Shown piece by piece: positions 7,141-42,202 of a DNA stretch of 44,015 nucleotides. Positions within the stretch are counted from its first letter, which is position 1. The number at the start of each line of letters is the position of its first letter. Under the pieces are notes generated by a model. That model was not told the DNA's origin, searched no databases, and saw nothing but the letters and a program-made list of their open reading frames with translations. Where the stretch lies: positions 1-44,015 of the forward strand of contig JAILAR010000193.1 of assembly GCA_024681515.1 (NCBI GenBank). Direction: 5' to 3'. Position numbers and translations under genes: made by a program. The DNA is from Eubacterium sp. Lineage in GTDB: Bacteria > Bacillota > Clostridia > Lachnospirales > Lachnospiraceae.

Positions 7141-7224
7141 TGTCATTCCGAACCACACGAAGTGTGGTGAAGAATCCCGTCACTCACACAGATCACAGGA
7201 TTCTTCGCTACGCTCAGAATGACA
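7141..7224. repeat. Two dyad repeats of the TGTCATTC / GAAGAATCC family
   Basis: Two oppositely oriented copies lie head to head. The first starts TGTCATTCCG at 7141 and runs to GAAGAATCC near 7177; the second runs from ACAGGATTCTTCG (7195) to CAGAATGACA (7224). The copies lie between icd and the J/TPR gene and abut the latter's start codon. Related copies occur at 8532, 23904, 40058, 40096 and 42166. Confidence 0.8.
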
Positions 7225-8531: not shown

Positions 8532-8662
8532 GGATTCTTCGGCTTCGCCTCAGAATGACAATATGATGTCGTTCGCGTAAAGGGATTCTTCGGCTTCGCC
8601 TCAGAATGACAATATGATGTCGTTCGAGTAAAGGGATTCTTCGGCTTCGCCTCAGAATGACA
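8532..8662. repeat. 51-bp tandem repeat array, about 2.6 copies
   Basis: Three copies of the dyad core GGATTCTTCGG...CAGAATGACA start at 8532, 8583 and 8634, exactly 51 bp apart. The linker between cores is nearly identical (ATATGATGTCGTTCG then CG or AG). The array sits upstream of icd and downstream of the HAD gene. It is a local expansion of the dispersed dyad family, not a CRISPR. Confidence 0.9.
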
Positions 8663-17455: not shown

Positions 17456-17507
17456 CGTATAAGTGGGGACGGTTCTGGTGCGCCCAGAACCGTCCCCACC
17501 TGTTCCA
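17456..17507. repeat. 52-bp palindromic repeat, left copy
   Basis: It contains a perfect 16-bp stem, GTGGGGACGGTTCTGG (17463-17478) with its complement at 17484-17499, and loop TGCGC. It matches 20626-20677 over 52 bp with one mismatch (G17480 versus A20650), in the same orientation. The two copies bracket the accessory genes between the exporter operon and purB. Confidence 0.9.
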
Positions 17508-20625: not shown

Positions 20626-20677
20626 CGTATAAGTGGGGACGGTTCTGGTACGCCCAGAACCGTCCCCACCTGTTCCA
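20626..20677. repeat. 52-bp palindromic repeat, right copy
   Basis: The 16-bp stem is at 20633-20648 and 20654-20669, with loop TACGC. It is identical to the copy at 17456-17507 except for one loop base and has the same orientation. Its right end overlaps the hairpin that abuts the purB stop codon. Confidence 0.9.
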
Positions 20678-20699
20678 CCTGATGGTGTTTCGGAACCTA
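20672..20699 (-). repeat. Stop-codon-abutting hairpin after purB (short relative of the que elements)
   Basis: GTTCC (20672-20676) pairs with GGAAC (20692-20696), and CACC (20676-20679) with GGTG (20684-20687), around a TGAT loop. The purB TAG follows directly at 20697-20699. Loop, flanking bases and position match the elements ending at the queE and queD stop codons. Confidence 0.65.
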
Positions 20700-34386: not shown

Positions 34387-34398
34387 AGCCGATCCTCT

Positions 34399-34432
34399 AT
34401 TCCACACTTCGCGCTCCTGCACTCCGTGAAAT
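34399..34432 (-). repeat. Leader motif copy upstream of amrS
   Basis: On the gene strand ATTTCACGGAGTGC, a short spacer, then GCGCGAAGTGTGGAAT ends about 12 bases before the start codon at 34386, overlapping the approach to the GAGG site. It is one of the best-conserved copies. Confidence 0.7.
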
Positions 34433-37776: not shown

Positions 37777-38258
37777 AATTTCAGCTCATAGCAGATAAAA
37801 TGCTGCTCGTACATATCACATTCTCCCATCTTCTGAAATCCAAAGACGGCGTAGGATCGGAGCGCCTTTTCATTCAGAGCGTTAACGATGCCGTGGAAGC
37901 TTTTATAACCACGTTCCCTGAGCCGGTCCAGTCCGAACCGGACCATTTGCCGGGCGATCCCCCGATTCTGATGATCCGGATGCACCGCCACCCGGGCGAT
38001 CTCACCACCGGGCTGAAGCTCCTTTGACCAGCAGGGAAGCTCGTCCACCTGCGGATCCTCCTCCAGAGAAACCGCCGCAATGATACGGCCATTCTCCCGC
38101 TCCTCCCGCATCACATAAAGTGCATCCCGGGACAGATCAAATGTGATCTCATCATTCGACGGATAATGCTCATTCCAGGGACAGAATTCCCGTCCGATCT
38201 GCATATGATATAATTCCAGGATCTCTTCCCGATCCTCTTCTCTTGCAAGTTCGATCAT
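37773..38258 (-). CDS. GNAT-family N-acetyltransferase
   Basis: A 161-residue acetyltransferase. The acetyl-CoA pyrophosphate loop is clear in IARVAVHPDHQNRGIARQMV, followed by GLDRLRERGYKSFHGIVNALNEKALRSYAVFGFQ, the typical C-terminal GNAT strands. The substrate is unknown. The ATG at 38258 immediately follows a leader-motif copy (GCGAAGTGTGGAATA), whose GTGGAA is the only ribosome-site candidate. It is unrelated in sequence to the GNAT at 24524 beyond the shared fold. Confidence 0.9.
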   Translation of the reverse strand: MIELAREEDREEILELYHMQIGREFCPWNEHYPSNDEITFDLSRDALYVMREERENGRIIAAVSLEEDPQVDELPCWSKELQPGGEIARVAVHPDHQNRGIARQMVRFGLDRLRERGYKSFHGIVNALNEKALRSYAVFGFQKMGECDMYEQHFICYELKL

Positions 38259-38259
38259 T

Positions 38260-38295
38260 ATTCCACACTTCGCGCCTTCCGGCGCTCCGTGAAAT
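38260..38295 (-). repeat. Leader motif copy abutting the GNAT start codon
   Basis: On the gene strand ATTTCACGGAGCGC, a short spacer, then GCGCGAAGTGTGGAAT lies one base from the ATG at 38258. A more diverged copy follows at 38367-38400. Confidence 0.7.
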
Positions 38296-40057: not shown

Positions 40058-40128
40058 GATCCTTCACCTCTTCGAGGTTCAGGATGACAATAATATGTCA
40101 TTCTGAGGCACAGCCGAAGAATCCTGTC
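40058..40128. repeat. Two dyad repeats between folE and queC
   Basis: One copy runs from GATCCTTCACC (40058) to AGGATGACA (40089). The other runs from TGTCATTCTGAGG (40096) to GAAGAATCCTGTC (40128). The two are in opposite orientation and belong to the dispersed TGTCATTCTGAG family. Confidence 0.75.
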
Positions 40129-40721: not shown

Positions 40722-40735
40722 TTTTGTATCTCCTT

Positions 40736-40760
40736 ATATTTCATACTTCGCGTTATTCCC
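40736..40760 (-). repeat. Leader motif copy upstream of folE
   Basis: On the gene strand CGCGAAGTATGAAATATAAGGAG leads directly into the folE ribosome site, a short copy of the GCGAAGTRTGRAATA motif. Confidence 0.55.
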
Positions 40761-40785
40761 GGTGATAGATCCATTCCAGACCTTT

Positions 40786-40892
40786 GTGAACGATTTTGGT
40801 AATCGTTCACATACCCGACCTTCGGTCGGGCTTCGCGCCTTCGGCGCTCGGGTGCATACGGTTCTCAAAACGCCTGATGGCGTTTTGGAACC
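40786..40892 (-). repeat. 107-bp four-hairpin element ending at the queE stop codon
   Basis: Four stems follow in order (plus-strand coordinates): 40786-40795/40801-40810 (10 bp), CCCGACC/GGTCGGG at 40814-40830, GCGCC/GGCGC at 40835-40847, and a 14-pair stem at 40860-40892 with a TGAT loop. The last base pairs within the queE TAG. The second copy is at 41624-41730. Confidence 0.8.
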
Positions 40893-41572
40893 TATACGCC
40901 CTTACGATTCGGATCCCAGATGAATTTGTGCAGCTGCAGCTGCAGCCGGACATTGTTCATCCGATACTCCTTCATATATTCCACGATCTCCTGTGGATGA
41001 ATCCGTCCATACACAGGACTTATGTAAACTATATATTCCTGATATTTCGGAATCTCACATCGATTCTTCTCTTCCCGCTCCCGGAGCCAGTCCAGATCGC
41101 CCCGGTCACTCACCACGCATTTTACGGTGTCGATGGAACGAAGCAGTCCCATATTCTCCCACAGCATCCGGTCCGACATGCCGCTGCCGGGACATTTGAT
41201 ATCCATGGTAAATGACACCCGCTCCGAGATCCCTATGAACGGTTCCAGAGAAACCGCACCGTTGGTCTCCACCTCCACATGCAGGAGTTCGTCTTCCGCA
41301 AGGCGCCTGAGCAGCTGATCCACATCCGGTGCCAGAAGCGGTTCCCCGCCGGTCAGCGTAATGTTCGTTACGCCGGTATCCTTCACCCAGGCATAAAGCG
41401 CCTCTTCCGATAAGAGCTCGCAAGGCGCATTCGGATCACAGGACCACCGGGTGTCGCAGTAATTGCATGCAAGGTTGCACCCCGCCAGACGGATGAAGCA
41501 GGAAAGCTCCCCTGCCCGCCGGGCCTCACCGTTGATGCTGACAAATCGTTCGGTTACATGGAATGTACTCAT
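40892..41572 (-). CDS. queE: 7-carboxy-7-deazaguanine synthase (radical SAM)
   Basis: This enzyme converts 6-carboxytetrahydropterin to 7-carboxy-7-deazaguanine by radical chemistry. The 226-residue protein has the cluster motif Cys32-x3-Cys36-x2-Cys39 (GCNLACNYCD), the SAM-binding LTGGEPLL (73-80) and FVSINGEARRAG at the N-terminus, a family hallmark for substrate and magnesium binding. GAGGT lies 9 bases before the ATG. It sits between queD and folE on the same strand, separated from each by a structured element. Its stop codon overlaps one of them. Confidence 0.95.
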   Translation of the reverse strand: MSTFHVTERFVSINGEARRAGELSCFIRLAGCNLACNYCDTRWSCDPNAPCELLSEEALYAWVKDTGVTNITLTGGEPLLAPDVDQLLRRLAEDELLHVEVETNGAVSLEPFIGISERVSFTMDIKCPGSGMSDRMLWENMGLLRSIDTVKCVVSDRGDLDWLREREEKNRCEIPKYQEYIVYISPVYGRIHPQEIVEYMKEYRMNNVRLQLQLHKFIWDPNRKGV

Positions 41573-41586
41573 GTGCGTATACCTCT

Positions 41587-41620
41587 TATTACATACTTCG
41601 CGGCTTCCGCCGCTCCGTTT
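41587..41620 (-). repeat. Leader motif copy upstream of queE
   Basis: On the gene strand CGGAGCGGC...CCGCGAAGTATGTAATA leads into the AGAGGT ribosome site of queE. Confidence 0.6.
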
Positions 41621-41623
41621 GCC

Positions 41624-41730
41624 TTATGAGCCGGCCACGGAAGCCGGCTCATAACCCTCACTTCGTTCGGGCATCGCCTTCGGTGATGGGCGTATACGCT
41701 TCTCATTCCGCCTGATGGCAAAGTGGAAGC
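41624..41730 (-). repeat. 107-bp four-hairpin element ending at the queD stop codon
   Basis: Same architecture and length as 40786-40892. A perfect 12-bp stem (TTATGAGCCGGC at 41624-41635 with 41643-41654) is followed by CCCTCAC/GTTCGGG (41655-41671), ATCGCC/GGTGAT (41673-41687), and a long stem 41698-41730 with the same TGAT loop. Its last base is the first of the queD TAG complement. Sequence differs from the other copy in most stems. Confidence 0.8.
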
Positions 41731-42149
41731 TATTCCGAGTAACTGGCGCAATTATTCGGGGTTTCGTATACCCGCACCCGGGTGACGGGACATCCCTTCG
41801 CCTTCATGTAATCAAAGAAATACCTGGCAAAATTCTCTGCCGTAGGCCGGAAGGGAAATGCCACAATTCGGAAATTCTCATCCTTCAGTGCAGCCATGGT
41901 GGCAGGCCTTAGGCTGTCCTGCTCTATCAGCAGGCAGTGATCCATCCGCTTGGCCTCGGCACGCAGCACCTCCTTTACATCGGAGAAATCCATCACCATT
42001 CCACGGCACTGACCTTCGGACTGCAATTTTTCTGCAGCCAGCTCCACCTCCACCGTCCAGCGATGACCATGGAGATTGGAACATTTTCCATCGTAGCCCT
42101 TCAGAAAATGGGCGCTGTCAAAGTTTGCCTTTGTCTGCAATGTATACAT
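41730..42149 (-). CDS. queD: 6-carboxy-5,6,7,8-tetrahydropterin synthase
   Basis: This enzyme converts dihydroneopterin triphosphate to 6-carboxytetrahydropterin. The 139-residue protein has zinc ligands His14 (DSAHFL), His27 and His29 (NLHGHR), catalytic Cys23, and MDFSDVKEVL. It is the first of the preQ0 genes queD-queE-folE-queC on the minus strand. AGGAG lies 8 bases before the ATG. A dyad repeat lies just upstream of the ribosome site. No preQ1 riboswitch was recognised. Confidence 0.95.
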   Translation of the reverse strand: MYTLQTKANFDSAHFLKGYDGKCSNLHGHRWTVEVELAAEKLQSEGQCRGMVMDFSDVKEVLRAEAKRMDHCLLIEQDSLRPATMAALKDENFRIVAFPFRPTAENFARYFFDYMKAKGCPVTRVRVYETPNNCASYSE

Positions 42150-42165
42150 AGAATCATCTCCTATT

Positions 42166-42202
42166 GACAGGATTCTTCGATGCTTCGCATCTCAGAATGA
42201 CA
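42166..42202. repeat. Dyad repeat upstream of queD
   Basis: A GACAGGATTCTTCG...CAGAATGACA copy with hairpin core GATGC/GCATC sits immediately 5' of the queD ribosome site. Confidence 0.75.

Follow-up and report, generated by a model that had tools for sequence, protein, structure and literature searches.

A dispersed four-hairpin DNA repeat that often begins on the TAG stop codon of the upstream gene in Eubacterium and related genomes

Two four-hairpin elements that begin on the stop codons of queD and queE, in a 44,015-nucleotide stretch of Eubacterium sp. DNA (contig JAILAR010000193.1; the window), belong to a sequence family dispersed among gut Lachnospiraceae genomes. We regard this family as probably (about 0.6) a non-autonomous, REP/BOX-like mobile DNA repeat that is retained preferentially at gene ends and whose stems are renewed on both arms. 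Of the two interpretations proposed in the first-pass annotation of this DNA, a palindromic mobile repeat has more support than a stop-anchored RNA element, which is its main rival. Scattered copies, orthologous sites that stand empty, arrays in tandem and the occurrence of either orientation away from stop codons in other genomes all speak for a mobile repeat.

The queD, queE, folE and queC genes lie on the minus strand of the window, where the neighbours of the elements match queD, queE, folE, queC and purB models. The positions of both copies, their parts and a decayed relative are given below.

41622 to 41732, minus strand: full element copy between queD and queE (copy 2; covariance model R1, 123.5 bits, E 9.1e-28)
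41732-41730, minus strand: TAG stop of queD, the first three bases of copy 2
41698 to 41730, minus strand: copy 2 hairpin 1, with 14 model-paired positions (two non-standard here), a bulged A and the loop ATCA (fold and model alignment)
41672 to 41688, minus strand: copy 2 hairpin 2, GAA loop (family alignment; absent from the single-sequence optimum)
41655 to 41671, minus strand: copy 2 hairpin 3, CCCGAACGAAGTGAGGG, GAA loop (family alignment; absent from the single-sequence optimum)
41624 to 41654, minus strand: copy 2 hairpin 4, 12 bp, then the GG end (fold and R1 model)
40781 to 40894, minus strand: full element copy between queE and folE (copy 1; R1, 108.1 bits, E 3.8e-24)
40894-40892, minus strand: TAG stop of queE, the first three bases of copy 1
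40860 to 40892, minus strand: copy 1 hairpin 1, 14 bp, with a bulged A and the loop ATCA (fold and R1 model)
40835 to 40847, minus strand: copy 1 hairpin 2, GAA loop (fold)
40814 to 40830, minus strand: copy 1 hairpin 3, GAA loop (fold)
40785 to 40811, minus strand: copy 1 hairpin 4, then the AAGG end (fold and R1 model)
20671 to 20699, minus strand: decayed hairpin 1 beginning at the TAG stop of purB (20699-20697) (sequence reading; BLAST to the queE copy)

The unit follows a plan of ~111 bp, TA-GG-hairpin 1-GTA linker-hairpins 2, 3 and 4-AAGG, in which the linker between hairpin 1 and the two short GAA-loop hairpins reads GTAYRYRCCC. Both window copies are real four-hairpin elements, but the twin length of 107 bp ascribed to them gives way to model spans of 111 nt and 114 nt. 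The other structural details in the first-pass annotation hold: the order of the stems, the TAG start, the terminal loop (TGAT on the plus strand, ATCA on the coding strand), the outer stems GGTTC/GAACC and GCTTC/GAAGC, and, by reading of the sequence, the absence of a U-tract after either copy. On the coding strand the two copies fold with minimum free energies of -56.1 and -50.2 kcal/mol (z of -8.46 and -5.27), the opposite-strand folds have z of -7.38 and -4.26, and in each of the four folds (two copies, two strands) none of 200 shuffles matched the real fold. Because the coding-strand single-sequence optimum of copy 2 merges hairpins 2 and 3, these two hairpins are drawn from the family alignment. 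The shortened relative proposed at the purB stop is also present, as a TAG followed by a decayed hairpin 1 that is overrun by a GGGACGGTTCTG palindrome; BLAST links this remnant weakly to the queE copy (E 0.002), and it is not among the R1 matches at E<=1.

Other small repeats share the window with the elements. Palindromes of the form GGGACGGTTCTG...CAGAACCGTCCC lie at 17466-17496 and 20636-20666. A second small repeat, ..GCGCGAAGTATGGAATA, often stands shortly 5' of start codons (41586-41599, 40734-40749, 38258-38271 and 34398-34410, minus), with a Shine-Dalgarno-like stretch and a start next in 13 of the 21 distinct copies at own-genome loci by a loose pattern, and the four-hairpin element starts inside this repeat at L046, L048, L049, L055, L065 and L066. 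Repeats of the form ATTCTTCG..CTCAGAATGAC are found at 7200-7223, 8534-8661 (three in tandem), 40097-40122 and 42172-42201.

Searching related genomes with a covariance model, as the first-pass annotation had suggested, reveals a dispersed family. Further copies in the window's own genome were first detected by BLAST and a pattern search. R1, a model built from 10 copies, then gave 52 own-genome matches at E<=1, the best at tiny E-values and the last few doubtful. A second model, R2, was built from 119 aligned matches (alignment A3); a separate hairpin-1 alignment, A4, was left unused since its gap sat away from the bulge. At E<=0.1, R2 reports 45 matches in the own genome, 32 in the related genome G002 and none in G011, the closest relative by queE. 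Under the stricter filters of the genus and order searches, with which weak copies may be lost, matches appear in 16 of the 61 genus members searched, the own genome included, and in none of the 38 further genomes of the order covered by the same search. Across 295 genomes of the order, from 130 genera, R2 finds matches in six, namely the own genome and five of a second genus (g44), that is to say in two genera; the g44 copies represent a distant form with the same four-hairpin plan. With one strict pattern, the carriers among Lachnospiraceae are AC2029, the metagenome-assembled genomes (MAGs) RUG694, RUG14248, RUG14168 and RUG13730, and one sheep-rumen MAG. Rfam gave no match on the window at gathering, and at E up to 10 only a snoRNA outside the elements (E 4.8).

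Tandem arrays are present in G002, with five complete units plus part of a sixth, as well as in G024 and G020. Those read are direct repeats; a REPIN or BIME would hold two palindromes in inverted orientation. Dispersal follows from very similar copies at unrelated places taken together with empty sites and these arrays. MAG contig stretches at L197, L200, L201, L203, L206, L210, L212 and L216 end less than about 90 bases from a match, and the four-hairpin repeat may break metagenome assemblies.

Placement relative to stop codons was scored at 95 sites, a set that leaves out matches without an intact hairpin 1, later array units, unfetched copies, L161 and L372, and that takes 32 sites from the 52 own-genome matches (E<=1) and 18 from the 32 of G002 (E<=0.1); gene calls were made by codon score, not taken from annotation. 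The TAG of the element is exactly the stop of the upstream gene at 53 of these 95 sites (own genome 20/32, G002 13/18, G058 4/12, G024 1/5, other genomes of the genus 14/20, g44 1/8), and four junctions shared between species account for 12 of the 53, which leaves 45 distinct junctions. If open stretches of at least 60 codons that run in frame up to the TAG are simply counted, the totals are 20 in the own genome and 55 overall. The stop anchoring described earlier for the window copies is thus a real property of the family and not a universal one. A crude expectation for random intergenic insertion at TA is 15% exact stops, and the observed share is about four times as high, with an excess over 15% both in the own genome (20/32, p about 1e-9) and at the other sites of the genus (32/55, orthologous sites counted separately); since the observed share exceeds this crude figure, simple TA targeting alone does not explain stop placement. 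At their other end, a number of own copies finish shortly 5' of a Shine-Dalgarno-like stretch and start codon; some matches at such start sites retain the 3' half only, and others retain little beyond hairpin 1 at the stop. Readthrough or recoding at the TAG was considered and set aside, with no consistent downstream frame by eye.

Orientation was scored as well. In the own genome all 32 scored sites lie 3' of a same-strand gene, two of them before a convergent gene, and the 12 off-stop copies are all sense. Outside the own genome, the 30 off-stop copies divide into 12 sense, 13 antisense, three divergent and two convergent, so that orientation there is free once a copy is off a stop.

Comparison with G011, whose queE is the closest (81%), shows sites without the element. 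Nineteen sites were queried, and all 18 junctions fetched lack a recognisable element, although the site of L130 may hold a remnant; L131 has no G011 ortholog. The stops at these 18 empty junctions are TAG at six, TAA at seven and TGA at five, which indicates that the TAG is usually brought by the element. In 14 of the 18 G011 proteins the C-terminus coincides with that of the window-genome protein, and in the other four it differs by 1 to 4 residues. The comparison covers 19 of 21 own C-termini (L045 is repetitive and L061 not in frame), the 21 having been preselected as near a stop. At exact-stop copies the upstream protein mostly ends where it ends in relatives. At the SufB-type junction L054, TGA is found in all four relatives examined. 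A repeat similar to ATTCTTCG..CTCAGAATGAC lies at the G011 junction L417.

Other junctions are occupied in more than one species; the names gatC-gatA, potA and dnaK-dnaJ, and SufB beyond its Pfam domain, were assigned by eye. G002 has a diverged copy at the L064 junction, and G017 shares the L131 copy. A gatC-gatA-like junction is occupied in G000 (truncated), G010 and G037, a potA-like junction in G002, G010 and G060 (three of 28 rows), and the junction of an FtsX-type permease in G002, G017, G020 and G040, and deletion has left remnants of it in G034 and G049; identity to the C-terminal stretch of G002 at the permease junction is 45% (G017), 53% (G020) and 42% (G040), with the whole flanks closer, which makes orthology there less certain. 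In g44, a gene ending in VGFN is followed by a copy in G247, G265, G290 and G326 and by a remnant in G218, and the dnaK-dnaJ junction holds a copy in G178 and G247 and a plain 3-base gap in G290. The VGFN site, and dnaK-dnaJ in G178, have the stop codon within the left arm of hairpin 1, ahead of the right arm. In other species of the genus, hairpin-rich intergenic stretches of other sequence also start at or just after stops, as read from the sequence (L407, L408, L410, L411 and L414 after the potA-like stop, L416 after the permease stop).

How the stems change bears on both leading readings. The two window copies had been described as differing strongly in sequence with pairing mostly kept, and the family bears this out: across 91 distinct copies 97.0% of 2968 cells are paired, and 34 of 35 pairs show changes on both sides. 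The covariation score is 0.678 compared with 0.170 for shuffled and 0.04-0.11 for slid controls, in an alignment fitted to the structure and with kinship ignored. Rather than copies unlinked to stops and without covariation above background, the pattern that the first-pass annotation had named as speaking against its proposal, we find covariation far above both kinds of control, with kinship ignored. Evidence for the active strand had been called mixed. Over the 91 distinct copies G-U pairs outnumber A-C pairs by 54 to 18, which favours the coding strand, but wobbles make up just 1.8% of the 2968 cells and their excess may partly stem from fitting copies to the model. In antisense copies the G-U excess lies on the element's own strand and not on the transcribed one (5 G-U to 1 A-C in 10 rows, few cases).

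At fixed sites the pattern is sharper. When hairpin 1 is compared pairwise between species at six orthologous sites picked by hand, 57 two-sided Watson-Crick changes stand against 6 one-sided ones, where species pairs are non-independent and the totals exclude the degenerate L064 site (two two-sided, three one-sided) and a further two two-sided changes whose outcome is a wobble or mismatch. Although the flanks of L131 and L096 show identities of 88% and 98%, four of the 14 pairs of hairpin 1 differ, each with compensation. At the g44 VGFN site, changes on both arms follow synonymous ones in the part of the left arm that is coding. Paired stem change of this kind is as expected from arm-to-arm template switching, which is described as able to keep stems paired (PMC8794818), or from replacement by a sister copy; selection on an RNA through wobble intermediates fits two-sided change less well. 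Covariation alone is no proof of RNA function here, since wobbles are rare and joint changes at fixed sites nearly always involve both arms, an outcome that a template switch at the DNA level would give as well.

These observations frame the strongest alternative, a stop-anchored, cis-acting RNA that is kept vertically, shields or processes the message between cistrons and sets stoichiometry by selective RNA processing and stabilisation. We consider it unlikely, if deserving of serious weight. It accounts for the placement of all own scored sites after same-strand genes, for the coding-strand G-U excess, for the junctions common to several species, for the two-arm changes that follow synonymous ones at the VGFN site and for the strong covariation, though DNA-level mechanisms could mimic the last. 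It also has a parallel in the clostridial operon cip-cel of Ruminiclostridium cellulolyticum, in which stem-loops between cistrons are presented as functional RNA, acting as cleavage and stabilising signals (PMC10311766). Such a role sits poorly with the sense orientation of just 12 of 30 off-stop copies outside the own genome, with the scarcity of wobbles and with the empty junctions of the closest relative. Nor do the upstream genes scanned share a common function: they include FakA, PLD-like, Rnf, SUF core, DUF4317, FtsX, aspartate decarboxylase, aminotransferase, transport permease, Rid, anti-sigma antagonist, nitroreductase-like, YchF, PepO-like, QueD, QueE and PurB, and the gene upstream of L052 has no Pfam match.

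Under the preferred reading of a mobile DNA repeat, a putative trans-acting recombinase that recognises the folded strand would spread copies, and both arms of a stem would be rewritten through template switching at the hairpin, conversion from sister copies, or both. Where a copy sits at a stop it would be kept more often, its first G completing the stop with the upstream protein intact, and a stable intercistronic structure would be tolerated or even useful in protecting or separating two messages. Selection that retains copies at stops appears more likely than insertion that prefers them. Several observations stand against a mobile repeat: exact stops exceed the crude expectation for simple TA targeting, TGA at five of the 18 G011 orthologs and in all four relatives at L054 also fits TA targeting poorly, occupation of several sites in different species looks like retention by selection, and the off-stop copies of the own genome are without exception sense.

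Inspection of the element ends and of candidate enzymes yielded no mobilising enzyme. A MITE would have terminal inverted repeats and a target duplication of fixed form. In the element TA at both ends is frequent and not general, no clean empty site with a target duplication came to light, and by eye the TAGG start is no inverted repeat of the AAGG(TA) end; the first two of these points, together with the low number of RAYT-sized genes given below, also count against mobility. A search of the own genome for Y1 transposases gave one match of 33 profile positions, in a frame that runs out at a contig end. At L040 of this genome lies an IS200/IS605-type tnpA cut by a contig end, whose visible left end is unlike the element.

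Two further proposals place the choice of site in the insertion event itself. The bolder one, that a mobile structured element targets stops of any type, swaps in its own TAG in frame with the protein unchanged, has its stems continually rewritten on both arms and so furnishes operons with portable intercistronic structures, strikes us as improbable. A repeat that inserts specifically at stops of any type by a ribosome- or mRNA-linked route, a proposal limited to the insertion step, is quite improbable in our judgement. It would explain why 14 of 18 G011 proteins, with TAG, TAA or TGA stops, have the same C-terminal end as their window-genome counterparts and why stop placement is well above the crude random expectation. 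However, many copies lie off stops in both orientations, the stop sits inside hairpin 1 at two g44 sites in one or more species, selection after insertion could yield the same pattern, and no enzyme with such a target is known to us.

It is very improbable that the element is a plain REP with a RAYT (REP-associated tyrosine) transposase as its mover, and the data give a RAYT no support in that role. A TAG tag does adjoin an imperfect palindrome, published GTAG REPs often supply a TAG stop (PMC3733652), and RAYT-sized PF01797 genes exist in the genus; against this, such genes occur in just 3 of the 16 element-bearing genomes, six of the 16 have no PF01797 match at E<=0.001 (several assemblies being incomplete), and R2 at E<=1 finds the element at none of the eight RAYT-like loci examined. 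Three of those eight (in G002, G011 and G025) are instead flanked by the other palindrome, GGGACGGTTCTG. The GGGACGGTTCTG...CAGAACCGTCCC palindrome, flanking RAYT-like genes as it does, is a candidate RAYT REP for the genus. The base 5' of the element's TAG varies (A, T, C or G), and the elements do not conform to the GTAG/CGTC tetranucleotide. Finally, intrinsic terminators or attenuators are a most improbable identity for elements that, though stable hairpins following stop codons, are without a U-tract after either window copy (by reading), lie in many cases between co-directional genes and are in some cases, such as L067 and L159, followed 3' by a separate terminator-like hairpin.

The family offers a natural case in which stems diverge fast at fixed places with nearly perfect pairing and few wobble intermediates, so that the claim that template switching keeps stems paired (PMC8794818) becomes directly testable. 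It also serves as a warning that strong covariation alone does not prove RNA function. If the element is mobile, bacteria gain a way to place structured spacers between the genes of an operon with the upstream protein unharmed.

A literature search by title and abstract opening found no description of this four-hairpin repeat. The BOX elements of Streptococcus pneumoniae are a modular, multi-hairpin intergenic repeat in a Firmicute, built from boxA-boxB-boxC modules whose units are duplicated or lost. The present element resembles them in this modular plan, a likeness at the level of general description, and on the same general grounds differs in its frequent exact start on stops and its one constant unit order. 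Unlike the element, the cip-cel stem-loops are operon-specific, and the abstract of that study does not present a dispersed repeat (PMC10311766). REPs of E. coli that lie <=15 nt from a stop are said to stall ribosomes and lower translation (RepRanger; PMC12306157), and the hairpin directly after the stop gives the present element a likeness in position. The GTAG-tagged REP palindromes (BMC Genomics 2013) are described as 20-40 bp long, with RAYTs discussed as their movers (PMC3733652). The four-hairpin unit of ~111 bp departs from that account in its TAGG start after any base and its direct-repeat arrays, and no RAYT link was found for it. What the two have in common is that they are dispersed extragenic palindromes near gene 3' ends with one tagged end, and, as the termini of GTAG REPs often give flanking ORFs their TAG stop (PMC3733652), the stop-supplying behaviour of the four-hairpin element has a precedent.
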